A stretch of 64,000 nt of DNA, taken from assembly GCF_000003815.2 (NCBI RefSeq), contig NC_049994.1, positions 10,119,244-10,183,243 of the forward strand, read 5' to 3'. The stretch comes from Branchiostoma floridae. Taxonomy: Eukaryota > Chordata > Leptocardii > Amphioxiformes > Branchiostomatidae. Position 1 is the stretch's first letter. Every line of letters starts with the position of its first letter. Position numbers and translations under genes: made by a program. Below are positions 5,662-61,900 of the stretch, in pieces. Under the pieces are notes generated by a model that was not told where the DNA came from, made no database searches, and saw only the letters and a list, made by a program, of their open reading frames with translations.

Positions 5662-8057
5662 TTACTTAGCAGTCGACAACTGCTGTTCTTCACTTTGGTG
5701 GGGAACCCTCTCCCATGTCTCCGGTCCTGTTATCTTGTACTCTGCATTTCTAAAGTGCTGAGGATCAGCTAACACATTCATGATAGAGTCTGCAAACATA
5801 GAATTCTGGCCCTTGGGGTCAGGTTGGCCAGTCACAATGGCTAAATCTGTGACATATGACATATACAGAGGGAAGACATCATGGGCTCTGTGTGGGGGTA
5901 GGCCTGTCTCTTGACGTGATTTATAGTCTTGTTCAGTTTCATGATCCATGACTGCCTTAGAGGGAAGACTAATGCTGCCATCCAAGACTCCTAGAGCAAG
6001 TTTTACTTGGAGCTGAAACAAGGCAAAAGCTAGGGCATTGCGCGGTAGACCTACAAATGACATTGTTGGATAGGTGGTGTTAAGAACATGCATGTACAGT
6101 GGGTAAGCTCTGCCGTCGTTGATAGTGATGCCACATTCAGGTTTAAGGAATGGGAAGCTGAGACTATATCCTGTACAATAGATGATATCATCTACGAGGA
6201 ACTCTTGTCCGTCCTGAAACCTGACTGTGTTCGGACCCACGATACTCTCTACTCTAGGGGCTTGGGTAACGTTAGGAGGTAGCTTGTGAATTTTCATGAT
6301 AGGTGGGTTAGAATGACTGATGACAACACGTTCGGCGACCTGAGCAAGCTCCACACAAATGTCGATTCCTGAGGCTGAGCCTCCGAGAATGACGACGTTT
6401 CTCCCGCTGAACGGTTCAGGGACTCGGTAGTCATGGCTGTGTAAGGTCCTGCCCTGGAACTGGTCTGTACCGGGGATGACCGGAGTGTTCGGGACGGAAT
6501 ATCGCCTGCAGAGGAAATGCAAAGGTTTTGTTAATGTATTATGTATAGAGGCCACTCCAGTTGGGCGCAAACCTTATATTTTAAACTTCAAACTATAAAG
6601 GGCTACGAACATGCCACAACAGTCGCTAAAATGTGTATGTTAATGTTTGCTAAGTAATTTTTGACGATCATGTGGAGTATTGAAAAAAAAGTAAGCTTTA
6701 TGTAGGAAGCTACACTCCTTCAAAGGGTAACTCTAGAAATTTCTCCGACTACGTACCCGCCATTACAAACCATGACTGCATCAAACTGTTCCGTTGTGGG
6801 GCTGTCTGGAGTCGTAACTTTGCATGTCGTGATCTGCCATTTCATGGTACCATGGACAGGTTTCACGCCATCAACCCTGGTCAGGAACTGAGAAACAAAG
6901 ACAAGTCTGAGAAGCAATGTTCGCACAGTTGGTTAGCAAACAAAAACAACTATCCATGTAATATGTTCTTCCCTTTTCCCAACTTGAATATACTATACTG
7001 TCGTCAAATGTCAGCTTAAACCTATTCACCCAAATAAGGAGAATACCTGGATATACTTGTGAAGTCCGAAGTGCTCTGCGTAGTTCTCCAGGTACCTAAG
7101 CACCTCCTTGTGGGACAGGTAAGATGGCAGGCTGCTGTCGTAAGGAAGGTCCGTGAAGACCATCGCCTCCTTTGGGATGTTGGTCCTTTTTTTAGCAGAA
7201 ATAGATAAAATCATTTTGTGTCCTCCAGAGGGACTCAACAAGGACACAGAAGTAAACAACACAGCAATTTGTCATACCTTTGTCACGTGAGAGAGTTGTG
7301 TATAGAAGTATTGCGATATACTTTTAGTAGCTGTCAGTCATAGCGGACAATGACATCCCTATCACACTGCTATCCTTCCCCAAATCATAGCTGGCACTAA
7401 ACCGAGAGCAAGGGGTAAGTGGTTATTCTAATATGGTCCTAAAACTGGTCCGACTACTCCCAACCTATCGCTAACCTTGGTTAGGTGTGATCGGGGTGGG
7501 GGACAAGGTCGGGGCTCGGTCCTGAATGTGTGACAAAGGCTTAAGCTATCGTACGGGTCTTCGAGTAAGTCACAGTTGACTAGAATGATGAAGTACTTTG
7601 ATAGCCGCCGTGGAATGAATTATATGCATATACCTTATCAACGTACATACGGACACCAGAAATAGATTAGCATGATTCCGGTGATAATGTATGCGGAGGT
7701 CAAACTTAAGAAGATTGTATAGTGCTGTTGATAGCATAATGCTATAACCTTGTTTTTAGGACAACACTCAGAACCAACTGCTTTTAGGACTATACTCAGA
7801 CCCACCTGCTGCAAGTCATTAAAGTTTACAAAAAATAGCAGTGAAACGATACTGCACCTCAGGTTTTTGTACATGCTGGAGTGTACAGGAAGCCCGTGCT
7901 CGTCCGTCCCAGTCCTGTCCGTGTACACCCAGGTCCCGCCCACCGCCGCTGTCTGCTCGTACACGGTCGGCAGGTAGCGGTCAGGTTCGGCCGACAGGTA
8001 GCGCGCCGCGCACAGGCCGGCCGGGCCCGCGCCGATTACAGCTACACGGAGTGCCAT
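5662..8057 (-). CDS. FMO gene B: flavin-containing monooxygenase, complete
   Basis: Four coding exons on the minus strand: 7858-8057, 7047-7185, 6757-6887 and 5662-6505, with GT..AG introns. They join to 1314 nt, or 437 aa. The enzyme should use FAD and NADPH to add one oxygen atom to nucleophilic nitrogen or sulfur in small molecules. Visible motifs are FAD-binding GAGPAG (residues 9-14), GGTW (40-43), the FMO signature FxGxxxHxxxY (F173, G175, H179, Y183), the NADPH-binding GGSASG (198-203) and CTGY (267-270). The length is like short invertebrate FMOs. The C-terminus ends EEQQLSTAK with no hydrophobic tail, so unlike many vertebrate FMOs it has no obvious C-terminal membrane anchor. The start is the first Met of the Rossmann fold, with A at -3 and G at +4. 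It is the middle gene of a tandem triplet. A foldback element begins about 80 bp after the stop. Confidence 0.93.
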
Positions 8058-9589
8058 TGTTGGTGACGACGTTTGCTCAGTGACATTAACAGGTGGATGA
8101 CAATCAACGCGAACTGAGATGAACTCTTTTGCAGAGGTCTCACGTCCGAATCACTTCAACTAAAAGTAGTTCCGTTCAAAAAGTAAAAGACTACATCTTC
8201 GTTGGTGTAGAGTTACAAAGATGCCATTTGAGTAAAATCTCCTGATGTAAGGCGTCAGGGAAGTAAAGGGTTTGTAAAGGGGAAGACATCGCGGTAGCTA
8301 AAATTTTGGACGTCCAGCGTTGCATCGGAGGTTTACAGTCTTTTGGAGTGCTGCGGTCGAGATATGTCATCGCCCCTGGCAGGAATGTGTGACCAAAGTT
8401 CAGTTTGTAGAGAGTGTACCATTAGAAGAATTGTCACTTTGTAGCTAGGTCTGGGCCATAATCCTATTTTTGTACGAAATAATGGCTAATATGATACCAT
8501 AGGCTGTATAGTTGTTCTTGCCGTTGTGCTATGCAATGATATGACTGTAAACGCGGTGTTTTGGTTCAGAGTTCGATGATCTGTGAGTAATCTATTCATG
8601 CCAGTGTGATTATATTGTTTTCTACTCATTAGCTCTCAATCGATGTGGTAACTCAAGTGTGCTGTAGATGCTAAATCATTGCTGTCCCGTAAAGTTTGGT
8701 AAATTGAAATCTGAAAATAGCTTAATGTTACCAAAGGCAGTGTCTATTCTCTACAAGTATGTTTATGATGAGAGTAATGCTCTGTTACATTTAGCCGGTA
8801 AAAACGGAACCTGAAAGCTGTTTAGTAAATGTTGAATAAATTGCAAGCATATCATAAACATGAAATGTATTTAGTAATGGCCGATTCAAATTATGTTTCC
8901 TTCGAACCACAAAAATAGTCCATTTTTTTATCTGATTTATAATTGACAGCATGAGCACAAAGATTTTTCCGGTTCGCAATATCTATATATCCCCCCTCTC
9001 TCTAATTATTTCTCTCTTGCTTTATCTATATTTTCATCTCTCTACTCTCTCTCTCTACATAGATATATGATATATATACTTATACCGAATATTATAATAC
9101 AATATACATGTAGATACAACACAGCATGACAGAGTAATGACATATGCGTATGCAAGTCATGACTTGACTTTATTTTGATAGTGGTATATTGTTCTGTTTC
9201 TTGGCTGATATCGAGCGATTCCTGGCAATGTGTAAAACTTCATTGTCGTGCGCATCGTCATCGCCATTGTAAGGGTGGACTCTTACTGCACTTGGGGCAC
9301 TGTTGCGGCACTGCGGGGTTCGTAGATGACTCAACGAATTCTTCAGAGATATAGAACGAATTTTCTTTCGTTTTGTGTATTTTGTTGTCTTCTAAGTCAT
9401 ACTTTTACGTATTACACAATATCTGAATTATTAAAAATCGCGAAAATAACAAAACAGTGCCGCAGTGAACAAACCCCGCAGTGCCGCAACGGTGCCCCAA
9501 GTGCAGTGAGAGTCAACCTTTCAGCTGAAGCAGCTGAAGTACTTACACAGCATCGAATCGCGATCAAAAGTTCTGACAAGTAGTGTACT
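8058..9589. repeat. FMO B-C spacer, second copy of the duplicated segment
   Basis: This is homologous to 4102-5661 at an offset of about 3.94 kb, with small indels. It contains the second foldback element (9271-9521). The duplication therefore spans gene plus spacer, not just exons. No coding gene is supported. Confidence 0.8.
9271..9521. mobile_element. Foldback miniature transposon 3' of FMO gene C
   Basis: Nearly identical to the copy at 5333-5583 and at the same position relative to the FMO stop codon. It was most likely inserted before the tandem duplication and copied with it. Confidence 0.75.
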
Positions 9590-12500
9590 TTACTTAGCAG
9601 TCGACAACTGTTGTTCCTTACTTTGGTGGGGAACCCTCTCCCATGTCTCCGGTCCTGTTATCTTGTACTCTGCATTTCTAAAGTGCTGAGGATCAGAAAA
9701 CCGACGCGCGAAGGCATCCATAAACATTTCGGTTTGACCCTGAGGGAAAGGTTGCCTGGTCACCATTGCTAAATCTGTGACATATGACATATACAGAGGG
9801 AATATAGCATGGGCCTTGCGTGGAGCTAGGCCTGCTTCTAGACGTGATCTAAAGTCTTCGTCAATTTCATGATCCATGGCTGCCTTAGAGGGAAGGCTAA
9901 TGCTGCCATCCAAGACGCCGAGAGCAAACTTGATCTGGAGCTGAAACAAGGCAAATGTTAGGGCATGGTGTGTGAGCCCTGCAAACGACATAGTAGGATA
10001 GGTGGTGTTAGTGATATGCTTGTACAGTGGGTAAGCCCTGCCATCGTTGATAGTGATGCCACATTCGGGTGTAAGGAATGGGAAGCTGAGGCTGTAACCT
10101 GTACAGTAGACGATATTGTCTGCGAGGAACTCTTGTCCGTCCTGAAACCTGACTGTGTTCGGGCCCACGATACTTTCTACTCTAGGGGCTTGTGTAACGT
10201 TAGGAGGTAGCTTGTTTATTTTCATGATAGGTGGGTTAGAATGACTGATGACGACACGTTCGGCGACCCGAGACAGCTCAACACATAGGTCTATCCCTGA
10301 AGTGGAAGCCCCCATGATGACGACGTTTTTCCCAGTGTACGGTTCTGGTACTCGGAAGTCATGGCTGTGCATGGTCCTGCCCTGGAACTGGTCTGTACCG
10401 GGGATGACCGGAGTAAACGGGACGGAATATCTCCTGCATGCAGTAGAAGTGAAAAACAGATTGTTTTTTGTCTATAGAGGCTGCTACAATTACGTCATCG
10501 ATAAAGATTAAACATTCAGGTAATAAGATACGCCAAAAAGCAGTTACTCAAGCAACTAAATATGCTTTTGGAAACGGTCAGACATTTCAGTGTCACTGAT
10601 GAGAGACATCGGGTGTTATCTGAAACGTCTGACCGTATGGGAGTCTGGTAAACCAAATAGGATGACAAGCAGGCTGGGCGTAATTGGCTAACCATACAAA
10701 AAGTGCCACATAACCGCTAGTCTTCATAACATGCTCTTTGGGGCCTTTTTCGGCTCATAATGCACTTTTGCTGGCCATTTCTTTTTGTACTGGGTCTCTG
10801 ATTGCCGGCCGTTGCTGATCCAATGGCCCATAGGGTGTATCATGACCCGAAAAAGGCCCCAGAGAGCCTGCTATGGAGGCTACACATAACATAAGAATGG
10901 GGGTTTGCATCTTTACGTGTATTTGCTTCGCTTTGGACTACGTACCCGCCATTACACACCATGACTGCATCAAACTGTTCCGTTGTAGGGCTTTCCTTAG
11001 CCGTGACCTTGGATGTCGTGACCTGCCATTTCATGGTGCCATGGACGTGGACAGGTTTCACGACATCAACCCTGTTCAGAAACTGGGAAACAGAGAAAGG
11101 ATCGAAGCTGTTTTTACTCGTTGGTTCGCAAGAAAGCTTTCCTCACAATATTTTCTCAATTTTCCCATCAAATATCTGCAGCAGGATAGATGTCACATAT
11201 CCAAGTTGCGCAGTAGAGGGCTCAACCTGATTTTGGTGCCGCCTAAAATCTTTGTTACCTCCTTACCTTGGCAATTCTGACCCAATCTGGAGACTTTTGG
11301 GTTAGAAGGAACAGGTAGGTTCTAAGCTTTGCCATTTTGGTCAAAGTATGTTTAGTTTTTAAACTTCATGACGGATTTGAGTTTTTGGGTTTGGAATCAG
11401 GAGAAAATTGGGGACAAAGGTATAGGGTGAGCATTTCTCGGAGTTTCAGCCAGTTGACAACCTGTTTTATTCGAATGTTTATAAAGATGACCATTGTGAC
11501 TTTCTGGTGGAGAATAACTTTTAGGATTGAAATCAGAGTAAGTGCTTTGCTGAAGTCTTATTTAAGTGTATTTTCCTGTGGGCAGGTCTCCGCCCTGCAC
11601 TTTTATATATCGGTTTGATAATGACCAATTCTTTAGGCGAAATCCATCAAGCAAGTCACACGGTACCTTAATATGATTGTGAAGTCCGAAGTTCTCTGCA
11701 TAGTTCTCCAGGTACCGAAGTACCTCCCTGTGTGGTAGGAACGATGGCAGGCTGCTGTCGTGTGGAAAGTCTGGGAAGGTCATCGCCTCCTTGGGAACAT
11801 TTGTCCTTTTGGAGAAAACAAATAAAATCATTTTGTACCGATCAGAACGCTCCTCCCTCTCTCTCGCAACTGTGTTTGAACCTGTTTAAAACTAGTCTCT
11901 GTCGTGATGGCGATCATTGATCGATTCTTGAGCGCTTTCAGCGTTCTGGCTAATTTTAGGTCGAGCAGCCGTCACATCGCCATCGCCGCAGTAGTAAAAT
12001 GGGAATTTAATTAATAGTCAGTAATTTGTCACGAGGCGCCCATCTCCGTTTCAGTAGCCCTGGGCCACACAACTTTGTGCAATCACTACAGCAGGGGGTA
12101 AGTCCAGTAGTGTCGTGTGTTCATCAACTTCTATTTCTCTTTCCAGAATGCTAAGCAGAGAAGGCAGTATGTGCCACTTTTTAAGTCTTTGGTATGACTC
12201 GGCCTTGGATCGAACACACGACCTACCGAATGAAAGGTGAACGCCCACTCGGCCATTGCACTCGGTCACGTCACGTCAGTTATGTAAAGACCAATTATGG
12301 CGCACAATATTTTCGCAAAGTAATCTGTATCCGTGGCATTAGGCATTACATGTATATGTGCAAAGTGTGAAAGTTCCCAACCGCGCTCTGAACTGAAGTC
12401 CCTTCATGACATGTCATGGAATGAACCCTGTTTCGAAACGCAGACGTGCGACATAGTCATTTTCAACTGTCTTCAAAGAAGAAGTCAACCACCGTAATAG

Positions 12501-13017
12501 TTACGTAGATTTAGTACCCTATTCTGTATCGTATGTACACTCGTCCACTTGAAATTTGTATATTAGAATTTAGTTTACCACCGCGTACTAGTACTTAGAC
12601 CGCATTCATCCATTTCATGTATTTAGTCTTTCTTCTCTTGCAATTAGCCCCATGGGCATGAATTTGCAATAAAACATTTCCATTGATATAAATTCGGTAC
12701 ATGTATGATACCGTTGACTTTGAAAAGTGGATTCTTTTTAGATTACAGCTATGGACGTCCATCATCAAGTACAGGTTACTAAGAAGTTACGAAAATAGCT
12801 GTGACAGCTTGTTGCACCTCAGGTTTTTGTACATGTTGGATCGCAGGGGAAGCCCGTGCTCGTCCGTCCCCGTCCGTTCCGTGTACACAAAGGTCCCGCC
12901 CACCGCCGCTGTCTGCTCGTACACGGTCGGCACGTAGCGGTCAGGTTCGGCCGACAGGTAGCGCGCCGCGCACAGGCCGGCCGGGCCCGCGCCGATTACA
13001 GCAACACGGAGTGCCAT
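9590..13017 (-). CDS. FMO gene C: flavin-containing monooxygenase, complete
   Basis: Four coding exons on the minus strand: 12818-13017, 11667-11805, 10946-11082 and 9590-10433, with GT..AG introns. They join to 1320 nt, or 439 aa. Function as for the FMO family: FAD- and NADPH-dependent oxygenation of small molecules. Exon 1 has GAGPAG at residues 9-14. The usual GGxW motif reads GGTF here (Phe where A and B have Trp). The FMO signature is intact (FQGRTMHSHDF), the second nucleotide-binding motif is GASTSG, and CTGY is present. Exon 3 has HVHG where gene B has HG, which accounts for the two extra residues. Exon 2 ends in HNHIK, unlike HKYIQ in A and B. It is the most diverged and the 5'-most of the triplet. 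The ATG has A at -3 and G at +4. Intron 1 holds a SINE; intron 3 holds two short repeats. Substrate unknown. Confidence 0.92.
10511..10650. mobile_element. Short dispersed repeat in intron 3 of FMO gene C
   Basis: The first 58 bases (10513-10570) recur at the right end of the window (63946-64000) with few differences, including CAGTTACTCAAGCAACT versus TAGTTACTCAAGCAACT. Inside is a small inverted repeat, GGTCAGACATTTCAG against CTGAAACGTCTGACC. Probably a dispersed miniature element or a retroelement end. Confidence 0.55.
10733..10867. mobile_element. Small foldback element in intron 3 of FMO gene C
   Basis: The ends are inverted copies: GCTCTTTGGGGCCTTTTTCG at the left and CGAAAAAGGCCCCAGAGAGC at the right, with further pairing inward. 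It is about 135 bp, non-coding, and absent from the matching intron of genes A and B. Confidence 0.6.
12040..12275 (-). mobile_element. tRNA-derived SINE in intron 1 of FMO gene C
   Basis: Read on the minus strand, the head has a tRNA-like A box, TGGCCGAGTGGGCG (complement of 12242-12255), and a B box, GTTCGATCC (complement of 12207-12215), spaced as in a class II (Ser/Leu-like) tRNA promoter. A non-tRNA body follows, ending near GGCCCAGGGCTACTGAAACG. The order head, body, tail is that of a SINE. The exact family name is not certain. Confidence 0.7.
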
Positions 13018-16000
13018 TTTTGGTGACGACGTTTGCTCAGTGACACCATTGATAATTGGCTGACATTTGTCCTGATATGAACTCTTGAGCAGAGCACACC
13101 TTATGGTGTGTCGTTGTCAAAAGTAGTCCCGTCCAAAAAGTAAAAAAGTTGAATTTTGAATCAGAGTTACAAAACATGCCGTTTCAGCAAAGCGACTTAA
13201 TGTACAGTAAAACGTCAAGAAGATAAAGCTTAAGGTTTTGTAGAAGAGAAGAAATCAGTGGTCGCAGGTCGCGTCGGAGGTCTACAGTACATTGTTTGAA
13301 GTGCTGCGGTCTACTGTTAGTGTAATTATGGTATTTTTCCACTTATTCGTTCTCAACCCGTCGGACAGGACAGCATAGCCATAGGTCTCTAACATTCTAA
13401 AAACGCCCTTCAACCTAACGAAAACGTTATTTGTAAATAATCACCTCACTGCGTACTTTTCTCCACCACTGGCCATACCACCCTTGTTGTTTTGACGCAA
13501 TATCAGCAATTTTAGCTCAAGACGGAACACTTTATCTTCTGTGGACCTTAATTTGTACCAATGGACACCTTTTATACTATGGGTTTTCGTAACTACGTTT
13601 TTAAAAACAACATCTCACGCAAGTTGTCTACCCAGAATTCAAACCAAACCCGCCTTATATGAATGAGCTACGTCCCCCCCCCCCCTGAAAACGATGTAGG
13701 ATTTCTAACTAGGCAATCCTCTTAGCTATGTCAATCATGTTGCTTAAAATGGTTTTAATTCCCCTTGTACGAGTTGCTCTCCGATAAGGCTGCCAAGAGT
13801 CTATGGCCTTTCATCTAGTACGTACTTGTGCAGCCATTCGATGTCCCTAACCACACATCTTTCTCTGATGTCCATCATAGAGCTTACTTACCTTGAGGCC
13901 TGCCCTGTTTCTGGCCATGTCCTGCCGAGAATAAACACTCATTCTGCGGATATCTAGCGTTTGAGTCACTTCTTCCGTAATAAGCCATCACCCTATTAAA
14001 GTAGAAGTAGTCCACTGTGTTCTGCTGCTGCTGCGGTGGTCTGGGCACCCTGCAACTGCAACCAGTCTTTCTTCAACTCTCTCCACTTTGTCCGGTTCGT
14101 CGCGATTTCCTTAGCTCCCGTAGTTTTCACCCGGGTACCGTAAGACTCCCTAAGTACCTTTTCTGTAAGGAACGCGTCCTGTGAGCAGACTTTAAATATC
14201 CTGCCCAATTAATGTCTCATCTAGTCGATTGATTGACGTTCTCGTAGATATGTTGTACTGTGTCGTCTGCGGACGTAAAATCCTGGTCAAGAAACTCTTT
14301 GAAAGTCGTATCTTCCAAGAAGCCACGATCCTCTTGTGTGTGTGATGGACTTCTTGACTCCCTAGATATTACAAGGACGTGGAAACTCACTACGCCAAGC
14401 TGGAGGTTCAGAAAGAGAAGGAGTCTTTAATTGACTTGCGCATGCGTATTAGACCAGCAGTGTGCATACAGCCCTTGCCACACAACACAAAAATCCGTCG
14501 GATGACGAGTTTTGTACCCTCATTGTTATTAGTTAGCTCATTGTTGTCTTAATCATCGCGCCCGGTGTTATCCCCAGCGATTTTTGTAAGGATGGGGCGA
14601 CGTTCGCAGGTCACAAAGCCGAATTAATATGATAGACATATAGATATATAATTTAACAGGGTGGAATTTCATGGGCAAAATCTGCGCAATCCTTTGTCGA
14701 TTTTACATACATACATTCGGTTGACCTTAAGATTCGGGTGGTCTTAAAAACCGGGTGACCTTAGATTCGGGTGACCTTTCAACAATCCGACGACAGTGGG
14801 GTGCTTCAGTGGCTATCGGAATTTTTGTCTTGGGCATAACATGCTCAGAAAGGTGTATTTTCTGCTTGTAGGGGTTGTCGCAGAATGTGTATTGTTCAAT
14901 TCTGGCCCGAATTTGTGACTTTTGCCATGTTTCGTCCTATGATTGACCTGAGATGACCCTGTTTTCGCCTTTGTTGGACTGACCCATATTGGAACAAGGG
15001 GTGAATCCTTTGTGACGTGGCATTTCAATCTTTAGGCCCTAGAATATCGGAGGTGACCTCATGCTTTTTCGTATTGAAATAAACCTTACCAATCTATCGC
15101 TTTATATTGGGGTAAAACGTAAGGTTTGAAGAAATAGGTGGATTTGTTTTGAAGTAGTTTTTTTTCATTTTTGAATGTTGATATTGTCGAAACTGGGATC
15201 TTTTAAAATAAAATCAAAATGAAACGAAAAAGCAAAAATAGCGCGTTCAATCAGCAAAATGTATAACCTGATTGGATAAACTCGCCAGGTATCACCAATT
15301 CACGACCGCCAGATTTTATTGATACATGTAGTATCCCCGAGTGATTAGTGTAATTCCCTGCTATACCGCCTGGAGGCGTCAATGCGCCACCAGAAATTAT
15401 CTCACGACATATTTACATCACACTGTACTATCAAGTCATGCTCAGGACTTGCGCAATATTGTCCAGCATGCGCATTCTGGCCAATGTTCAAGTAATTCAT
15501 GGAGCAGGTTGTGATGTCACAGCGTCTCCTTGCGAGAATTTGCTGCATTGCATGGCATTGGTGTGTCGTCACTGATGATAGAATCGCGATGCGTTAACAT
15601 TTTCGCAATATACTATATAGTATCGTCTCCTGAAAACAACAATCCCAATGCAAGACTGATCTGTGATCAACACATTCATGAAGTTTATCTAACAATTTTT
15701 GACCCTGGGCGGCGTTGGGGTCGCTTAAGTACCCCGATACCTGTATGCCATGCGCCAGTCTCATCTAGTACATTATTGTTGATATAGATCATACATTTGT
15801 ATAATATACCTTTATTGCTCTCCAAATAATCTCTTTTTCTCTATTGTGGTCACTGTTGCTTGCCTTGGAATGAAACAGCAGCGTCCCGAATATTTGCTCT
15901 CGTGGTTGTCCATATTCCTGTTCAAACGCTAAATTCTCCTACGTGCGTCACGTGTTTGCATCACGCACGAAGTTGCCTCCCCTGCCCTTCAACGGCCGTC

Positions 16001-18587: not shown

Positions 18588-18801
18588 TTGGTACGAGTAG
18601 TTATGAAAGTACAATGTTAAACTTTCTTCCAACACAAAAGTACACACGGATCAAATTTTCAACCACCACTGTCGCTTTCTTCGGCATCAATACTGATGAT
18701 GCTCAGAAAAAAGCAGCAGTGGTGGTTGAAAATTTGATCCGTGTGTACTTTTGTGTTGGAAGAAAGTTTAGCATATTGTACTACAACATAACGGTACCAT
18801 G
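18588..18801. mobile_element. Foldback element with 53-bp perfect inverted repeats
   Basis: Bases 18619-18671 and 18717-18769 are exact reverse complements around a 45-nt centre, and weaker pairing continues outward to TGGTAC on each side. The string CATAACGGTACCATGG occurs at both outer edges (about 18560-18575 and 18786-18802) in direct orientation. Perfect arms suggest a recent insertion or active conversion. Open frames here are by-products of the symmetry. Confidence 0.8.
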
Positions 18802-20001: not shown

Positions 20002-20490
20002 CCCCTTTTCCACTAGGACGGCGCTCTCGCCGCGCTCTCTCTGCGACCTAAAATTTTACAGATCGCTCAACGAATTGTATAGAAAAGAAACGAAATATTT
20101 TACACTCTGTATTTGTGATCCTCTCAGTTACACTTTATATGCTGTATAATATGACCGGGATGAAATCAAAGGTTGCACATATCCTATTTAGATCGCAGTG
20201 AGAGCGCATCGCGCTCGCCGGCGACCTCTCTGCGACCTCTTTGCGCCCGCGCTGCGAACGAGCGATTTGACAGAGCGCTCGACGAGTATCGCAGATACAA
20301 AACGAATCTCTTTACACTGTGTCTTTCTTGCCTTTCAGTCATACTTTTACATTTTGCATCATATTTCAATGATAAAGTCTGAAATAGCTAGGGATATATT
20401 GAATATATTGGTTTATAACCAACAGTTACACAAATACAGTTTAGGTCGCAGAGAGGTCGCGGCCCGAACGCCGTCAGGTGGAATGAGGGG
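20002..20490 (+). mobile_element. Two adjoining miniature elements of the shared-core family
   Basis: Unit 1 (20002-20220) runs from CCCCTTTTCCACTAGGACGG to ATCGCAGTGAGAGCGCATCG. Unit 2 (about 20221-20490) repeats the same order: GCGACC blocks, GAGCGATTTGACAGAGCG, GTCATACTTTTACATTTTGC, GTTACACAAATACAGTTTAG, GTCGCAGAGAGGTCGC, ending GTGGAATGAGGGG. Heads and tails are imperfect inverted repeats of GGTCGCAGCGAGAGCG type. Confidence 0.7.
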
Positions 20491-23789: not shown

Positions 23790-25440
23790 CCAAATATCGA
23801 CCGAGTGACGGTTGACCACTTAGAATGTGCGAATCGGTTTGCGAATAAGCGACCTTTGTTACGATCACTGTAAGTGCTAATACACCCTTTGGACATTGAA
23901 CGACAGAAGAGAGATCAAAGATTTACAGATTACTCAACAAATTTCATATTCAAAGGACGAATATTTTTACAAGTTTTCTGTGGTTTGCTGTCTTTTAATT
24001 CGTACTTTTGTATCTTGTGTTATATGCCAATTATGTATACTAGCATTTTTAAAATAAGGGTCGCACAAATGCAGTTACTCAGCGACCCTTCTCTATTGGG
24101 AAATCAGCAAATATAATTCTATGATCTTCCGTAATATCTCCATCAGGGTGTCGATCTCGCTGCTACAGCTTTGTGAAGAAATATATGACATATCGATAAA
24201 AAATACCATCGATGAAGAATGATTTCCTTTAAATTCCGTGTCTTTGCTCTCTTTTGAATTATACTTTGGCATCTGGCATCACATCCCAAATTTGCAAACT
24301 GAAATGCAATTTTCGTTCCCACGGTCTTGTGGGGAATCAGCAAATGTCTTGCGTAATTCTCTTACACCTCCATCCCACTTCAATTGCCGGCAACCTTGCT
24401 ACCACCGTCCTGCGACCGAACGTTTGATAGAGAGCTCAACGAATTTCATCGATAAAAAATAAATCTTTTAAAGCTTTGTGTGTTTTGTAGTCTTTTAAAT
24501 CATACTTTATATTTTGTATGATTTTCGAATGATAAATTCAAGACTTGCGACTGTCATACGTATACGACCGAACGCTCTCTCTGCGGCCTAAATTTTGACA
24601 TATCGCTCAACGAATTGTATAGAAAAGAAACAAATCTTTTTCTACTTTGTGTGTTTTGTTGTCCTCTCAGTCACACCTTTACGTTTTATGTGATATATCC
24701 AGTGTAAAGTGAAGGTTACACATACTCCTATCTAGGTCGCAGCGAGAGCACAGCCCGATCGCCGTCTCCGTCTAGTGGAAATAAAGGGGGCCTTATCTGA
24801 CACCCCTACCCCACTTTGACGGCAACGTCGATAAGACTGCCATACGACCGAACGATTTGTCAGAGAGCTCAACGAATTTCATCGATAAAAAGAAATCTTT
24901 CTAAGCTTTGTGTATTTGTAGTCTTTTAAATCATACATTTACATTTTGAATGATATTCCAATGATGAAGTCAAGGGCTACGAATTTCATCGATAGAAAAT
25001 AAATCATTGTAAGATTTATATATCTTGTAGTCTGTAAGATCATACTTTAACATTTTCTATGATTTTCCAATGATAAAGTAAAGGGTTACACAAATCAAAT
25101 TGAGGTCGCAGCGAGATCGCATCAGGCTCGTTGTCTTGTAGGAAATCACCAAATGTAATTTTACGTTCTTTCCACTAGGACGGCGCTCTCGCCGCACTCT
25201 CGCTGCGACCTAGAATTTGACATATCAATCAACGAATTGTATAGAAAAGAAACGAAAAAAAAATATGTTTACACTTAACACGTATGTTTTGTGTCTTCTC
25301 AGTCACACTTAAGTTTTGTATGATATACTCGTACCCAGTGTGAAAGTGAAGGTTACACAAATCCAATTGAGGTCGCAGGTTGCACCGCGATCGTTGTCTA
25401 GTAGGAAATCACCAAATGTAATTTTACGTTCCTCCGTAAC
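23790..25440 (+). mobile_element. Array of about six to seven shared-core miniature elements
   Basis: The same ordered blocks recur with centres near 23.95, 24.23, 24.47, 24.65, 24.92, 25.03 and 25.27 kb: a GCTCAACGAATT..TAGAAAA block, an AATCTTT..CTTTGTGT..TTTTG block, TCATACTT..ATTTTG, ATGATAAAGT, and GGTTACACAAATCC..GGTCGCAG. Terminal blocks CTAGGACGGCGCTCTCGCCG and GGTCGCAGCGAGA appear in inverted relation. Units have drifted by different amounts. No unit codes for a protein. Confidence 0.7.
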
Positions 25441-30255: not shown

Positions 30256-31381
30256 AGGTTGAATTTTGTTTATGTGAAGATGATGATGATAATAATAGCC
30301 TTTGTAGTACATTCATGCCTTATCGGGCTAAGTACAGGCATACAGATACAAATGTTGTAACAAAGAACATGGTGACATTGAGAGAACATACTGAAACTAC
30401 TCTAACCCATTGGTTCGGCTTCTTCTCCTCTCTTAAATGAAGATACATTTTTCAATACTAAATAAAGATCTAAAGTGAAGAAACGTTACTATAATTCGAT
30501 TGAAAAAGACATTTCTATCGTTAGTATATAAACTACTGTCCAAAATGATATGGTATTCGTCTTCTAACTATTCAAGTCACAAAGCTGACAAAGTCTTTAC
30601 TCCAGAGGTGTGCTGATGTGCCTTCCCGATTCAACGCGGAGTTTGTTGCAGCTGATTCGTAGTCCGACCGTGATGGTAGTTCTTTGTCGTTCGTTTGGGA
30701 TTTAAAAAGCAATATCAAAGTATGGTCACTACAGAATTTTAAAGTAAAAGCGAAGACAGTATTTTGATTCATGTTAAAGTGCGCTTATATACTTAACAGC
30801 TGAAGACCCAGCAATATCATGGGCGTTTTACACCAACAAGGTTTGTTGTCCAGTACTTCTCCAGATCCAGATTCAGATAGCTGAGTCCATGAAAGTTTGT
30901 AAACCTAGATATTGAACTTTCTTCCTCTACATCAACTCATAGGCACAGTTATAGTACACGCATAATAAAACTCCTGTAGCTGTGTGATACCGTCCTCGGG
31001 AAAGGAACGCACCGTTAGGACTGTGGAATCCTGGCCTCCTACATAGCTTCAGTTATGGATGTATTCCCTCGTTGGGATGTAAAGTCGGAGGTCCTTTGTT
31101 TGAGGAAAGAAACACATCAAGCACATTAAAGACCCCACACACTTATCAATAGTAATATTTCTATTGCATGTTCATGCCCCTAGGCTAAATCATTAGGCAC
31201 AATTATTATCGAGGAGAGACGGTGACCTTCCCGGTGTAGTGGATCAACCCGTACAGTTTCCTGGTCTGGGGTTGGCATCTTGTAAAAGCGACAGTTTCTC
31301 AATCCTTCCACAAATATTAATGTGGCACATTTAAATTAAGAAATTAAGAAAATACACACACAACTGAGAAAGCGTGTAGAG

Positions 31382-39900: not shown

Positions 39901-42059
39901 TCTATTCGCCTTTGGGAATGTATAGACGAGGCAACTCTCAAATATCGCACTTATAGCTACATGTTGCGCAAATAGTCACTACTGTTGTGAAAACCTTTCA
40001 TATTCGCCAAGTTATTTTTGTGCAGGTGCTTTACGTTTGTTTTTGCACACAGGTGAGCATTTTTGACATGTATCCACCCGTAGAAGGGCACGTGCTTCTC
40101 AAATACCATTTAAAAACACAAAAAATATCAAAGAAATGAACAATATATATATATATTATAAATGTTTCAAATGGCAACATTACTTAAGAAGTCTACTTGA
40201 CTATACTTAATTATCGTTTGCCATACTCTATAGGTAAATAGGTAGATAGATTATGTTTTCTCATCTGAACATTCAGATTGCTAAATCTATGTAATGTTGT
40301 TAGGCTGAAATTTAGTGATATTTCTCCATTTATGTGAGCAAGATCCGTTTGTTTATTCCAAAGAGTAAACTAAACAGGTACCAACCCGCTGAGGAGAACG
40401 GTTAACATAATTCTTATGTATTTTGTTGAAGGTATAGAAGCAACAGTTCATAGTAAATGGTAGCACGTGTTTCGTCCAAAATATCACTACGTCTACATAC
40501 CGAAAGGCAGCAGACATGTATGTACACACAGTATCCTATCAGTGTGCACCAGCTTTCTCGGAGTGCTGGACTTTAACTGACAATTTCTAATAAATAACTG
40601 CTACAATTTAAACATCATTGCAAATTTATGTGTGATATATTCGACTCGCATGACAAGTATGCCGATAGCATCGTTTCCTATACTGCATATCAGTTTGTAT
40701 ATAAGCTGGCGGTATTTTCAGAATTGTATAGTTTGGGGGTTTTATATACAAGAAATGTATGTGTATTGTGCTGTATTGTGGTACGAGTAACTGTATTGAT
40801 AGGTAAGCTATCTAGCTTTTAGTATAGGTGGAAATATTTTGTAAATATCGTTTACGTTCGGTTAAAAAATGTGGAAATATATTGTAAATATCGTTCGGAT
40901 AAAAATCCATTCTCCTCTCCGAGACCACTGTGGCAAATTTTCGTTTTTTTCCTTAAGTTGATTTGACCGAAGATTGAAGGAATTGTGCTCTTCACCGTCC
41001 TTAGACTTGTCGGTATAAAATCGAAAAATCATTTTACATAGAAAAACGTATCAAAGTTTAGATATTCACAAACTCAGACTCAAATCTAACTCAGATAGCT
41101 AACAAATTGATCAAAATATTATCATAGTGTGTTATAGAAACAAATGCTTATTTTATAGCATTTCTCGTTCTCTGAAAATTGCATGTTTTGTCAGGATATG
41201 AATTAATGTTATCCTATGAGGTTTACGTCAAGTTTGTGAGAGTGAAACTCGTTACCACATAGTGTAAACAAAAGTTAAAACATTGCCTGTAGTAGTTGAC
41301 GTGGTGACAATACATGGAATAATCGCATCATGTGTGTAGACGTACGAATGCTGACATGTTACCCCCCAAAAAGAAGACGGACCAATTCAATCGGGAAGAA
41401 TATCAAATAATCAATAAAATGAGATAATAATTATTCGCAACATACCGTGTTTCTGTCTAGACAAAACAGGTTTGTAAACGAGTCTTGATCATGTTTTTAT
41501 GTCTGGTGGTGTCCCTTCACATACTTACCATACCCTTGCCGTCTTGGCGCCAAAAATATCGAACAAAAATCGTTCAATAATCATTAAAGACGGATAGTCC
41601 AAGATTGTTTAGAACAAAATTGCTCTGGTAATACTGTTGGTATTGATAACAGCACAATCAAGTGAAAAGAGTCGGTTTGGTGTGACAAAATATTGTAGTG
41701 TTGTCGCGTATGTTTATATCAAGCGGCTGTTTCCAGAAATAATTCTATGCAAAGCATCATACACTATGCTCAGCTTGTCGATATAATTATGCATGGATGA
41801 TTTGAAATTTTGGATAAAAAACAAAACTTAACCGTAGAAAAGTTGCTAATTGTCGAAGCATTGCCTTATTTACTGTTTGCCGGCTGTTGTGTAGTTTTTT
41901 GCGAAAGACAATTTTCGTCGACATTTTTTTGAAATTGTCGCCCATCCACCGACGAGCCTAACTTCGTCTAGACGTTGTTGTTATGTTCTTGAGAAGACAG
42001 AAATTGAGACGTGGATGAGATAGAGTGTGGTCTAGAAAAACACATTTTTTTTTCCTACA
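36996..42059. other. Repeat-poor region upstream of the Hox gene
   Basis: Five kilobases with no transposon, microsatellite or coding region that I can support. One E2F-type palindrome TTGGCGCCAA lies at 41544-41553. An open frame at 39615-39956 has no recognisable similarity. Hox clusters of chordates are known to exclude transposons, and this stretch would be a place to look for conserved enhancers. Confidence 0.5.
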
Positions 42060-42269
42060 TGGGGTGTGCCACAATTTCCCGCGCACGTCACGTGACTGTC
42101 ATAAAGCGATGGCACCATCCAATGAGCGCGCCTGTCTCAGAGTGGGCCACGCTATGATGAATGGTGTTTAGGCAAACCTCCGTACGACGGTATTTCAAGC
42201 CCGTCTCAGACACGGCTTCGGTGTCCTTGAGTCATTCACGCCTGGAAACACCGACGGCACCGTTTCGAC
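42060..42269 (+). promoter_or_regulatory. Probable promoter / 5' UTR region of the Hox gene
   Basis: The base composition turns GC- and CpG-rich just before and through exon 1. Matches to known site types lie close together: an E2F-like TTTCCCGC (42075-42082), a palindromic E-box GTCACGTGAC (42087-42096), a caudal/posterior-Hox-like TCATAAA (42099-42105) and CCAAT (42119-42123). I see no clear TATA box at a fitting distance, and the transcription start cannot be placed. These are motif matches only. Confidence 0.4.
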
Positions 42270-45235
42270 ATGAGCGGCATCGCCGGGGCGGAGACCGACC
42301 TACTGCCGAGGAGCTGGGGTGGTCTGAACGGCGGATGCAAGCCTCTTCCCGGCCAGGGCACGCCACACTCCAACACCTACACCGTGCAGTCGAGCGCTCT
42401 TTCACGGGACTCTGTTTACGCGCGGGACCTTCCCGTGCCGCTACTCATGATGCCAGCTCGTAAGGATGTATCCCACGGGGCGACCAACATGGGGTGGAAC
42501 GCCTCCTCTCACCATTTGCACATGGCGCAGGAGTGCCCCGCTCCTATCGCAGAGTACTACACGCCGGGAGAACAGACCTATCAACCCGTCGGATTCGCCC
42601 TACCGCAGTCCAGAGGATGCGACCCCTTCCCCAATGGCCATGAGTACTGTCCCCCCGGCTACGCCGTGGACGCCCAGTACGGATGCCGCTACTACGACCA
42701 ACGCAGTCCCGTCAACCAATCCATGTACGGAGCCCAGCAGCTACACCCGACCACCAACTCTTCCCCTCCTAAAGCAGCCACAGTCTACACGCAAGGTAAT
42801 TTTTATCACAAACGACAACTAAACGATATTCTCCCCCTTTTAACGTGCACTTTTTACAAGGATTAAAACGTCGGAAGGAAGATTTATGCGCTACGGAAGT
42901 CGATTTAAACGCCAGGGCGGGAGCTCCGCTAGTCGCCGTTTTTGAACCACTGGAGGAGAAAAGACGAATATCGGCCGTGTCTCGTGTCCTAGCTTGTCTA
43001 CGCGTCCCGTAGTACACTATTTCTTGCTATGTCATGGCTTGGAACGTTGTGCTGCTCGTATTTGAAGCTAAATTATCATATCTAGTTTCTAATGAGCGAA
43101 ACAAAAAAGAACACTAGCGCACAGGTGGTCCTGCAATACTCCAGCTGGGTTTACGGCATGTTCTTCACTTTAGTGCTTTGCACAACCGCTCGAGAAAGTA
43201 CAACTATCTTTTTTGTCATGCCTGCCGTCGCGTTGTTTTGCACGAGGACTGAAATGCACCTGCTCATTCATATTCAATCCCTCATTTGTTCTGACAATTT
43301 ATGAGCAAAAAAGTCATCTTTATTCAGAACAATAAAACAACGATCAATTTCCAGTTACTACGAGGTAGTGTTGCGTTTGGTAATTTAGCTTAAATACCAC
43401 TACAACACACGAACGTACGAGCCCAAAACACGCCGTCTCGAGAAAGAGATCAACTATCTCTGTAATCATTGAATTGAGTCGGGCTGCAAATATTCATAGG
43501 GATTTGAAAACAAAAGGTAAGATACAAGGGAAAGTAATAGTAGGATAAAAAGACTGGCGTTATCACACACAATATACCAACCGCAGAATTCTCGCTCACC
43601 CTGTGTGGTGTTTTCTTTTTTTACCATCGCTCATAAAGTTTCATTAACTAGTGGAACCACCGCGTATTGTGAGAGACCTTGTCTGCCAATGCTAAAATAG
43701 ACTTGTACTTTTTATACGACTAACATACAGCGGATAACTAGTTTGCCATTGAGCCCTTCCCAATGTTGATTTCATATTACTCATGACCGAAAAAGGGAAA
43801 TACAGAAGTTGCGTGAAAAGTAACGATTCTCACATCTTTTACGAAGCGGTTAAGTTGTTGGAAAAGGGTCAACCAATGTTTTATGTTCCCCACAAAACAC
43901 ACAATTGTTTCTATGTGCCATATAATTTGAGCAATTACAACAAAGAACGTCTATCTAAACGTCTGATTATACTTCGCATAGAAAACTATATTTCAAATAC
44001 TCTATATAAGAAAAAAATAGAATACTTCCCGAGACTTTGTGGTGATAGAAAAATAGAACAAAGTCGGGTGAAAAGGAAAAAAAAGTGGTCACAGATGTTA
44101 CTAACCGCAAACGTTATTTGTTTCCATACTTTCCGCAGACCCCAAAAGTCTATTCATTTAGACCTACGCTAGTGACATCTGTACTGGGTTCCACTATGTT
44201 CTTCATTGATCGTACTGAGGTTACCGCGTTGTGGCATTGACTGAGTTCTCAGAGAAAAGAAAAATCTTTAACAGCTTTTTAAGAGACTTAATCCTTGTAG
44301 GATTAGGTACGCGCGTCAGCTGTAGAAAATTAATACGTTTTTAACTAGAGGGATTACCTTGTATTGTTAGTACCATAACACAGTCTGGTACAGATAACGA
44401 TCTTTGTTTCCGCATATAGGTTACAATATACAAAGGGCAGATATGCGGTAGTCTTTATAAATTGATAAGTTAATCTTCGGAGATACATGTGGTATGTAAT
44501 TAAGACGAGACAAGTATGCATGTTAAAGTTAGGCTTGGATTGCTTTTTTTTTGGAATAGCAAATTGACGAGACGGGCGAAAAACAGAGAAAGTATTAATT
44601 CTACGTGCTCGTGTGTGCACGTGTGTATGTGTCTCTCTGTGTGTGTTTGCGCATGTGTGTGAGTGTGTCCGCGCGCGCAAATATATAAAAATTGAGGACG
44701 TCGACTGTGCATTTGCTCTTCCTCTGACAATGAAAATTGAAAAGTTTGAAGTTTCTTTGACATTAGTCATGATGCATTTCATATGGACTTATTATTATTA
44801 TAAATTGGTGTTTAAAACTTTGCATTTTTCTTGTTTGACATGTCTGTACTTTTCTGCTATCTTTAAAGCATGTCTGCGTAGTTGACAAAAGGTTAAACCT
44901 TATTTTTTTGTCCTTTTTTAGCCCTTACTGCATTCCCAGGCACCAACCCCGTAACCGGAGGTACGAAGGGCTTCACCGCAACCTCCGGGACGACACCCCA
45001 GCGCCCTCGGACCAGAAAGAAGCGACGCCCGTACAGCAAACCTCAGCTGGCCCTTCTCGAAGACGAGTACGCCTCGCAGAAGTTCCTGACGAAGGAGAAA
45101 AGGAAGGAGATCTCGGAAAGCAGCAGTCTGTCGGAAAGGCAGGTGATGATTTGGTTCCAGAACCGCCGGATGAAGGAGAAGAAGCTAGCGCGTCGAGCCG
45201 CGGCGCAAAGACACGCACAACACTTATACGCATAA
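42270..45235 (+). CDS. Posterior Hox gene (Abd-B class, Hox13-like homeodomain; probably amphioxus Hox15 or Hox14)
   Basis: Sequence-specific transcription factor of posterior body patterning. Exon 1 is 42270-42795, ending at CAAG|GTAATT in phase 1. Exon 2 is 44922-45235 after TTTTTTAG. The join stays in frame and gives 279 aa. The ATG is the first after an in-frame TGA at 42228. Residues 1-175 are low-complexity, rich in Pro, Tyr, Ser and Gln, with no clear hexapeptide. The homeodomain is residues 206-265: R210, Y213, L221, Y225, and WFQNRR at HD 48-53 (residues 253-258), followed by MKEKK. It has Y20, A21, K24, F25, T27, K28 and KEKK, as in vertebrate Hox13. Position 46 is Met, where most Hox proteins have Lys and Hox13 has Thr. 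The protein ends 14 residues after the homeodomain. A second acceptor at 44940 is also in frame and would drop six residues. No second Hox gene lies in the 42 kb on the 5' side. The Hox class is firm; the paralogue number is an inference from position. Confidence 0.93.
42796..44921 (+). other. Single intron of the Hox gene
   Basis: This 2126-nt phase 1 intron begins GTAATT and ends in a T-rich tract before AG. An alternative in-frame acceptor lies 18 nt downstream (AG at 44938-44939). The intron is AT-rich, holds a degenerate GT-rich microsatellite at about 44605-44690, and has no recognisable transposon. An open frame at 43783-44172 (129 codons) resembles nothing I know. Confidence 0.85.
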
Positions 45236-56060: not shown

Positions 56061-57423
56061 CCATTCCAACCATGTTCATGAATAACTAAAAAACATGGAT
56101 AACATCGGGATGCTATGGGTGGTTATATGTGCAAGAGTTTATCTCTTGAAAAGTATACAGTTAAGGGAGATTATTGCTCAATTCAAAAATCGAATTCTCC
56201 CCCAAACACTCATCAACGACTCGTGCCAGAATTCTGTTTCAGTGCCATACTTATAGAAATACGATATAATGTTTACTGTTTGCTCTCAACTTTATATTGA
56301 AGAGCCCATTCGGCAAGATCTAAAGTATAGTGTGAACAAATAGATATGCAGGTAATAGTGCTGTAAATTCAAGGGATCACTTACGATGGATTTCACGGAT
56401 TCTTGACGACATCTTGTTGGAATGCTGTTTGCATACAGGCATGTTTGGGGCCAATACTGCCAACAGTAAAAAATGTAGAAGATAAAATGGTTAAGAAGCA
56501 ACATTTTCCAGGCTACTAAACTTTTTGAAAACTTTTATTTTTGTACAAAAAAGGACGGGCCACAGGGCCAAAGTTGTCATCATATTTGCCCATTTATATA
56601 GAAAGGAAAATTGAAGTTTCTAAAACTTGGTATGTAATGTTGGAAGTATGCAAAGCTAGGTGGATACTCGTAGGTCTGTATCTGAGTGACTGATCAACAA
56701 GGGTTTGACCAAGGAGGTTATATAGACATATATAATCTCCTTGGTTTGACTTTGTAAAAGTTCATAGCTAAGTGTGATTTTATAGATAATATTTACTAAA
56801 TAATTGATCTTAGGTGTTGAATATGTTGGTTGCAACTTATAGATGAGCACCTAGTCAATAACTAACGAATGAATACACCTTCCGTTTCATAGTTGTTCGT
56901 AGGAGGCTGACTTTACCACATTCTATACATCTTTTATTTTAATCGTAGCTTCCAATTGAATTAGATAATGAAGATATTTGACCTAAAATCATAACGTTTT
57001 TAGATTAATCAATGTACGATAAATGTGCTTAAGTGAATGAAAAAGACGCAAACCTATTGGCAGAAATAATATGATGGCATTTGCAACGTAATAAAGAAAC
57101 ACATGGCGAACAGACAGCTAGCTATGTTTTCATTTTGAGAAGTAAATATTTCTAAATATACACAGCGCCATCGCCGTTTGGTTACCAGAGATGTAAGTAT
57201 AACCATGGTTCAAACGTAGCTATATAAACATGCAGAAATATCCACTGTTGCGTCTGAAATGACAATCTGCATACAAATTGTGTCTCTACCATGGGTCAAG
57301 TTCATCTTAATTGAATCAAGAAAGAGTGACGAAAAATAATGTAAAAGCAGGTAGGAGGGCAATTTGCGTTTTTATGATACTCACGGACCGGTATGGGCAG
57401 GTTGTATGCACTAAAATTACGTC

Positions 57424-58101: not shown

Positions 58102-58915
58102 GATTGTCTATACATCCTTACATCCCTCAAACCATTTCTTCCTTCGCTAAACCCTACAGGTACATTGTCTTTAACGCGACATATACCTCTGGTTTAACAA
58201 TCCTTATCCATCTTGAGTTGTAGGAAACAAAACGTTATCATTTATGATTTTGAGATAAGGAGCTACATGAACTGCTGGGAAAATAAAAACCATATATGTG
58301 AATTAAGGATTAGAATCGCTGCTTTATTTTTTAAGATGGCGTGGAAGAAAGTGAACAACATTTTTCCATGGAGCCAACATTCGACAATATAGTACTGAAA
58401 CTATCGGCTTTCAACAACAAAAAAGTTTTAGAAAAATGTACGTAATAATTTACATTCAATATTACACATGAAGACAAATAATCTATAAAATATCTAGTTG
58501 ATTAACTTACGAATGATCATGCAAAGCTACAGAATGGAAAAGTTTACTTTAGGTGATATGAGGCAAAGAAATATGGACTTAGATTATTCCACTTGTCCGC
58601 ACTGCTAGAGTTACATCAATGTCGGAAGTTTAACATTTGAAATTTAAAAGCTTTTAATTAAGTATCCCTACAGTTTTGTATCTTGCATCGGAAGTAAAGA
58701 TAACGTTATATATGTATTTTTTCGTAATATACTTATTTGTGCATTCATCAAGGTTGACGTACAGAACTACAACATGGCTCCATTGAACTTGTTGAAGTCA
58801 TTGTTATGATATTTTAGTAGCTTCACCATGTGGATTTAAGTATAGACTGTCTCATTTGTACATGTATTTATATATTTGACTTTGACTATTCATCTATTTG
58901 ACTTTGACCATCCTT

Positions 58916-58950: not shown

Positions 58951-61900
58951 TCACTCCTTCTTTTCATCCTTCCATCCATACATGCACCCATCATTCCGTA
59001 GTTGACACCACATGTATTGATGTTTTTGTCACCTGATGTGTGGTTTTCGCCGATCAACTCCCATTTGGTTATGACTAACAACGTCACAAGGTAAGTGTGG
59101 TTATTTTCTCGATGAAGATAATGCTAGTTTGAACCCAGATAGTTTGCAGAGAAATGTATGTGAAACTGTTCATTTCTATATTACATGAAATGTTGGAGTT
59201 GGTGCCTGAAAATGCAGATTCAAATAAAGCGATGTTATATAGTATGCCTTAGTTTAAAGATGTTTGACAACATGTTTCTCAACTGGTATAGAATCTTGCA
59301 AATTGCTTAGCAATAAAGAAACATGACTTGTACGTTTCACTTAATAACTGTCCTTGAACGAAGCACAAAGTTGTTTACATTGAGAGTGCTGATTTTATGT
59401 TTATACGTTTGTACCTAACCCTACCGATTTAAACTTTGGTCTTTCGGTTGAGATACTAAATGCTGATCTAGCCAGTATCCATTTTTATGAAAATGATAGC
59501 ATATGAATTAGCGTGTCAACAGGTTCCTTTCAAGCACGTAAAAAAGCAACAGCGAATGTTGAAATCATATGGTCTGGTCAGTATTTATCTGTAACATGTA
59601 TAAGATGCAGAGATGTCAATATCAGGATTAACATCTGCCAAGTGTTCCAGTCGCCCACCTCCCTGACTTGTTACGTTGTCTGTGGATAATCAAATAATTG
59701 CCTTAGGCATTTCCTGCAACATCAGAAATCATAACCAACCGCTGGCTGAGCTAAGACTTATAATGGTACAAGAAAGTTCAACATATCTCTCTCATCTATA
59801 CCTTCTTGTCTATTATCATGTCGACCGTTATAACACTGAACATCTCGCAACCAAATCTGGCCCTTCTACACTTCTCAATGTATTACTTTGTGTCATGCCT
59901 GACCATTTTCTGCCACGATTCCTGTTATACCTGTCTCTCCTTCGTCTTCCTTGGGAGATTTTTTTGACTGAAGTTTGGCCTAGTCCCGATGAACTTGAAA
60001 TGTTCCCATACCAATGTGCAACAGTTTTCTTTCCTGTGCTTAAGAGGCCTTCGTCAGGACCGTTCCTTGCTTAGCTCTATTCCGTACTTGTTTTCGAGAT
60101 GGGGTATCGGTGAGTGATACCCAGAATCTTCCAAAATCATTTCATCTCGTACCATTACGATTGGATAAAAAGGTAGCAGGAAAGTGATGTCTAAAGTTCT
60201 CGTCGCCATCTTATTTTTCTACAATTCTACAAAGCGCTAACGGAAGATGTGTGATATCAAGACAAACTGGTTCGGGTTAGAAATTTAGCTTTACACTTTG
60301 CTCATGTGTGTTAATGCACATGTTATCTAATTATGCGTGATATTTTCTTGAAATTCTACGTCTTTTACAATTTCTTTTACAAGCTGAAGATGGAGCATCA
60401 AGACAAGCTTTTCTAGAAATTTAGCCTTATCCATTGGTCATCCATAAACTTTCCAATATATGTATGTTAGTTTGTGTATGTATATGTATCAAGCGTGATG
60501 AGATGTCTGCTATCTCATTGTGATATTTATTTTCATAAAATTCCTCTTCAAGCTTATCTTTGCTCTCTGCTGAAGACCTCTTGCCAGTTCCCTTTCATTT
60601 CCAATATAAAAAGATTTTGACTTTTATAAAAAATGTAATTCTACGTGAAGATGGGGAAAGCATTTTCACATGTTTTAAGTTAAGAAATTCACGTTTACAG
60701 AAGTAATAGGATCCAGCTCAATTTGAAGCTCCCTCGGTACTTATTCAAATATCAGGAGTTTTACATTAGCTACAGATGACCTCATCACATCAACAAGTTT
60801 CAGATATCAAAGAGAGGCCCTCAATTCCATGTCTAACAAAACGTGTTCTTATAAAATATATACTAAGCTACTCAGTTTGTTGATATTCTTTTGTAAAACG
60901 ATAGTGAGATATTCGGGTAATTAAGGACAAAATGGACATTTTTTTGTTTGGACGTCGACCTTTCTTTATTCATGGCAGCTCGGCCCTAAGGTCGCTTTTC
61001 ATATGGCGAAATACATGGGGTTTTCCTTCAAAATAATTGATGGGACTAAAAGCCAGCAATAGCTACAAGTTAGTAAGAAAGAAACGTCCAGATTTGGTGT
61101 TTCTTTTGCTTTCGCAGGAGCATAATACTTCATCTTACAGGACTTACCTATATGGAACTGATATCACGTAGGAAATAATCGCTTTGGAACGTCAGATTTT
61201 CGTTACACCCTATTTCACGTTCTTGAAATAATGATATAAAGTATGACATTTCCTCGATAGGATACTAAGACGAATGACGAAAATAAGTGTTTTTATTCTT
61301 CTCTAATGATCATTTTCTCATATGTATCTGCAATCTTAGGAACATTTTGACCCCAAAAAAATATATCTGTTTTCCAGTCGCATACAAAGAGATGCAAATG
61401 ACCGTTTTATTTTTTTTGCATACGAGACATTATCTGTTTGACAATTATCGAAATGATACATGTAGATTCTTGTCTGTGTGTCATATGTTCATTCCATTAA
61501 AACATTCTGTTTTTCCCATCAATAGAAGTCATATATATAAGCAGCTTTAGTTTTATTCACATTGGATCACAGTCAAAAATAGTTGAACTACTGTGATACA
61601 AATACTACGTATAGAAGTATAAAGTTTGAAGTTTTAGGCTGTAAATTAAATTTGAATGTAGAGTTTGGTGAAAACAGTCCTCTTTGCAAAATGTTCAAAG
61701 TCATTAAGGATAACTGTACCCTTCATTTCACAAAGTAGTTACGGCTCCTTGCTATAGTAGTGTATTTGGCTGCTTTGCTCCTGGTCTCTTTCAACAGTCA
61801 TCGCAGCCAAATACTATACAAATGCACCGTAGCTCTGAAAAACAAAGATACCGTTATCTCTACTTTCCTTGTTATCATCAAGAACATCTAACAAGATCCA

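Follow-up and report, generated by a model that had tools for sequence, protein, structure and literature searches.

Which of the posterior Hox genes are common to chordates by descent is a long disputed question, and the described system closest to the locus considered here is the amphioxus Hox cluster, for which published accounts are cited by the passages that treat these genes. In Branchiostoma floridae the cluster covers about 470 kb, with a single orientation throughout (PMC6307173), and is carried on chromosome BFL16 (PMC11175523), with Hox15 situated between Hox14 and the EvxA-EvxB pair (PMC8386295). Three amphioxus genes, Hox11, Hox12 and Hox14, have an intron inside the homeobox, which in Hox12 lies at a different place (PMC3707753); in ascidians, Hox12 and Hox13 are adjacent, with their orientation reversed (PMC5602962). 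Hox15 has been assigned to PG13 with a posterior probability of 0.97 and by a non-tree classifier (PMC2842273), and with a bootstrap of 84% (PMC5602962), an assignment that has been accepted in review (PMC3707753). A clustering study placed Hox15 as an extreme outlier near no Hox group, yet most similar to Hox13 (PMC2876039), and in other papers independent duplications are favoured or orthologues are denied (PMC3534614; PMC4066700).

The DNA analysed, referred to as the window, is a stretch of 64,000 nucleotides of the B. floridae genome (contig 16, 10119244-10183243) that includes a two-exon gene on the plus strand, from the ATG at 42270 to the end of the stop codon at 45235. This gene is almost certainly lancelet Hox15, which stands at the 5' end of the single Hox cluster and resembles vertebrate Hox13 more than any other lancelet gene does; by homology it is a sequence-specific transcription factor, with a probable posterior role. 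Neither the gene nor its resemblance to Hox13 is new to the literature; a text search of the literature with five homeodomain peptides gave no match. The first coding exon (42270-42795, 526 bp) comprises 175 codons plus one base of the next, and is joined across a GT-AG intron of 2126 bp (42796-44921, with the GT donor at 42796) to a second coding exon of 314 bp (44922-45235) that contains the entire homeobox and the stop codon, for a joined frame of 279 amino acids. The unsplit homeobox occupies 45011-45190, such that homeodomain residues 1-60 correspond to protein residues 206-265, and it was recovered in a genome-wide search at contig 16 positions 10164257-10164427. The Pfam Homeodomain model matches residues 207-263 with a score of 64.7 bits (cut-off 22.9; E 6.5e-18). 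Exon 1 is without a known domain, its single Pfam match (E 7.7) falling far under the relevant cut-off. The probable promoter and exon 1 are covered by a G+C-rich stretch at 42000-42999 (55-57% G+C, versus 33-38% in the upstream 41000-41999).

A posterior Hox homeodomain of Hox13 type had been proposed in a preliminary description of this DNA, and solved structures, identity counts and a phylogenetic tree all bear this out, with the best match to Hox13 and not to Hox9-12. Among the best 60 of 113 solved-structure matches with E <= 0.001, the first nine are HOXB13 or HOXA13 (77.8-72.1 bits), followed by Abd-B (58.4), engrailed (57.8) and HOXA9 (55.8 bits). Over 58 residues, the homeodomain is identical to vertebrate Hox13 (HOXA13, HOXB13, HOXC13 and HOXD13) at 37-40 positions, to vertebrate Hox9-12 at 31-34 and to lancelet Hox9-14 of the same genome at 31-33; the highest count, 40/58, is reached with both HOXB13 and HOXC13, and the best lancelet genes, Hox9 and Hox14, reach 33/58. 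Similar values were obtained over 60 residues with a hand-entered comparison set, four members of which (two Hox13 sequences, HOXA9 and Abd-B) were checked against solved structures and agreed: 40, 40, 39 and 37 identities to four Hox13 sequences, and 32-34 to Hox9-12 and Abd-B.

The likeness is not uniform along the homeodomain. Eleven positions separate the Hox13 rows of the comparison set from those of Hox9-12 and Abd-B, and at these the lancelet protein is Hox13-like at 20, 21 and 24, Hox9-12-like at 33, 37 and 54, and has a residue of its own at 6, 22, 36, 38 and 46. With these eight departures, and with an exon 1 that has no significant Pfam match, Hox15 differs from vertebrate Hox13. 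All the residues originally singled out as Hox13 hallmarks are found in the gene (Y20, K24-F25, T27-K28, and the KEKK that follows WFQNRRM), but they are weaker as hallmarks than had been supposed. Y20 is also found in lancelet Hox13 and Hox14, and is therefore not specific to Hox13, while F25, T27, K28 and KEKK each occur in some Hox9-12 sequence of the comparison set; within that set, K24 alone of those listed is restricted to Hox13, and A21 and K24 are the only residues that the gene shares with Hox13 exclusively. Lancelet Hox13 and Hox14, which have Y20 and a common cluster with Hox15, reach identities of 32/58 and 33/58 with it, and Hox14 differs further in its split homeobox. These two genes are nearest each other (42/58), and their nearest vertebrate homeodomain is HOXD11 (41/58 and 40/58, respectively), in agreement with the likeness to Hox11-12 reported in passages of two publications (PMC2876039, PMC3707753).

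Alignment of residues 206-265 and a tree that included lancelet Hox9-14 of the same genome grouped Hox15 with vertebrate Hox13 at a support of 91/99, and trees without the lancelet genes gave the same grouping at 94/91 and 92/96. The tree favours a common descent of Hox15 with vertebrate Hox13, as one-to-one orthologues. The alternative that survives best holds that the gene is Hox15 by position, but arose through a duplication within the Hox13/14 line that is specific to lancelets, its resemblance to vertebrate Hox13 being convergence. We consider this unlikely, though deserving of weight. With about 60 columns, the AU test rejects neither the grouping of Hox15 with lancelet Hox13/14 (p 0.233) nor that with Hox14 (p 0.158), Y20 is common to all three lancelet genes, and independent duplications have been favoured in some papers (PMC3534614; PMC4066700). 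On the other side stand the support of 91/99 for the grouping with Hox13, the identity of 40/58 with HOXB13 versus 33/58 with lancelet Hox14, and the sharing of A21 and K24 with Hox13 alone in the comparison set. In a smaller tree, again with about 60 columns, the AU test likewise rejected none of vertebrate Hox12 (p 0.217), Hox9/10 (p 0.097) and Hox11 (p 0.075) as the partner of Hox15. The preliminary description had called orthology to vertebrate Hox13/14 an open question; that caution still holds in part, given the AU test and a literature that is not unanimous, but the publications lean toward a PG13-like Hox15.

The identification of the gene as Hox15, as distinct from its kinship, comes from its place in the cluster. 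A homeobox search covered the 513,431,437-base assembly (431 contigs), with 150 of 246 candidates scored. Among these are the homeoboxes of at least 14 Hox genes, all on the plus strand of contig 16 from 10164257 to 10637264, the first of which, at 10164257, is the unsplit homeobox of the window; counted from the ATG at 10161513, the cluster spans 476 kb. Hox14 comes next on the 3' side; its homeobox, at 10246243, is split after about residue 45, with the second half at about 10249000. Hox14 is followed, also on the plus strand, by lancelet Hox13 (10302072), by Hox12 (10310025 and 10311581), split earlier than in Hox14, by Hox11 (10325607 and 10328836), again split, and by Hox10 (10357986) and Hox9 (10446470). 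Seven further homeoboxes of the cluster, judged by resemblance, we take to be those of anterior and central Hox genes. Of the 15 Hox genes expected in all, one is absent among the 150 of 246 candidates that were scored; we presume it to be Hox5 or Hox6.

On the 5' side, where the preliminary description had placed a cluster edge, no Hox gene was found. The next homeoboxes are at 10079438 on the minus strand and 10052377 on the plus strand, and both read like EVX1; the latter Evx is also the nearest homeobox 5' on the same strand as Hox15, so that no same-strand Hox gene was found beyond the FMO genes that flank it. The Evx pair is thus oppositely oriented, with 27 kb between its members. The nearer Evx is 82 kb from the Hox15 gene, with FMO genes and a phosphate transporter between them. 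A profile search of 10074500-10119300 together with the window revealed no homeobox besides one Evx and Hox15, and for 10056500-10074500 there is none among the 150 of 246 candidates scored in the genome-wide search. For the window, a homeodomain profile built from 14 hand-entered sequences was searched against 2928 frames, of which the Hox15 frame scored E 4e-27 and no other fell below 0.4; searches with single sequences added one weak match (E 0.056), which was taken as chance. Candidates for a split neighbouring homeobox (56862-56939, 58657-58797, 60430-60594 and 30663-30764; E 0.056-0.84) proved on reading to be chance matches, and other WFQNRR-like stretches of the window matched at only 5/10 residues.

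Because Hox14 is the next gene 3' and the Evx genes are the next homeobox genes 5', the gene is Hox15 at the edge of the cluster, thereby settling the earlier guess of Hox15 or Hox14 in favour of the former. The genes with split homeoboxes here (Hox11, Hox12 and Hox14) are exactly the published amphioxus three, and because these split homeoboxes, the order Hox14-Hox15-Evx, the cluster span and the chromosome all fit the published amphioxus arrangement, the gene can be equated with lancelet Hox15. A posterior Hox gene of some other animal, for instance a tunicate, hemichordate or echinoderm, is highly improbable in view of this arrangement and of the reversed ascidian Hox12 and Hox13. Compared by published description, it resembles amphioxus Hox15 in its place between Hox14 and the Evx pair, its orientation, its unsplit homeobox and its Hox13 likeness, and no difference was found. 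That the gene is instead lancelet Hox14 or Hox13 has nothing but a general posterior-class likeness in its favour and is scarcely credible, since both of these genes are located 3' on the same contig; for Hox14, position and the unsplit homeobox of the present gene together rule the identity out.

A pseudogene, as might be suggested by in situ probes that gave no Hox15 signal in Branchiostoma lanceolatum (PMC3534614), is improbable in the extreme, given the two-exon open frame, clean splice sites and intact homeodomain described above and the amplification of Hox15 transcripts by RT-PCR reported in the same publication. A separate study found low expression of Hox2-Hox15 (PMC4793263). Literature on Asymmetron and Hox, as far as it was returned by the search, held nothing on Asymmetron Hox15, and no amphioxus paper was among the titles listed in a literature search on chromatin of the amphioxus Hox cluster.

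As for the function of Hox15, homology predicts that its homeodomain would bind Abd-B-type AT-rich DNA sites and that the protein would help set posterior identity; a role in tail or hindgut may be envisaged. Hox9-10 proteins use a tryptophan motif near the homeodomain to recruit PBX. The 279-residue protein has tryptophans only at 16, 76 and 253, and none in the segment that leads from the exon junction up to the homeodomain; that segment therefore lacks a PBX motif like the one in Hox9/10, and Hox15 would act without one near its homeodomain.

The flank between Evx and Hox15 is occupied by genes of other kinds. FMO genes in place of another Hox gene had been noted on the 5' side from the outset, and the window, in which no second homeobox was found, indeed carries three tandem FMO copies, all on the minus strand, in an array that extends from contig 16 position 10118913 to window position 13032. 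Copy 1 (3-4101) has one exon at 3901-4101 and another at 3-476 that continues past the window edge; copies 2 (5665-8072) and 3 (9593-13032) are mapped by their first and last exons, at 7857-8072 and 5665-6501, and at 12817-13032 and 9593-10429, respectively. Copies 1 and 2 are identical in 67/67 aligned residues of their first coding exon (3901-4101 and 7857-8072), versus about 80% likeness among the C-terminal exons, a pattern that suggests exchange or gene conversion between copies. A phosphate transporter gene with a PHO4 domain sits some 4 kb to the left of the window, on the plus strand of contig 16 (frames 10110653-10111186 and 10114682-10115449), with Evx on one side of it and the FMO array on the other. 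This flank of FMO genes, phosphate transporter and Evx agrees with a published statement that genes adjoining Hox clusters, evx excepted, are highly rearranged (PMC11175523). Nothing on the Hox15 flank appeared among the titles and abstract openings listed for FMO and amphioxus.

Non-Hox genes of the window were sampled by comparing 8 of its 98 frames of at least 80 amino acids with Pfam. A 172-codon frame on the minus strand at 2279-2794 has no Pfam match but shows a cysteine-histidine pattern that resembles the terminal part of a non-LTR retrotransposon protein; a weak relative of it, with a stop, is present at 30579-30698. The 175 bp at 18608-18782 match their own reverse complement at 88% and are perhaps a short inverted-repeat element, and related repeat copies, 79-92% alike, are found at 20007-20220 and 24413-25431, the second of which contains two 109-bp units in tandem (24872-25089). 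No tRNA gene was found in the window, and none of six RNA-family matches up to E 0.5 attained half its gathering score.

Outside the homeodomain, a single lead bears on the relationship to vertebrate Hox13. When hand-entered N-terminal stretches of vertebrate Hox13 proteins were compared with exon 1, the score of the HOXA13 stretch against residues 103-128 was equalled by 3 of 500 shuffles; for HOXB13, HOXC13 and HOXD13, shuffles reached the score in 423, 154 and 319 of 500, respectively. Because the stretches were entered by hand, the motif is kept as a lead only, and the proposal of true orthology between Hox15 and vertebrate Hox13, with a vestige of the N-terminal motif of Hox13 (TYQP..AL...NG..YCP) retained in exon 1, is, at present, a doubtful one. 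The gene fits the published picture and adds to it only this weak lead and an account of the neighbouring genes, and therefore contributes little that is new. Lancelet Hox15 is one of the main pieces of evidence for a Hox13-like gene in the chordate ancestor, and if it were a true orthologue with a trace of the N-terminal motif, that ancestor would already have possessed a Hox13 protein conserved outside the homeodomain.
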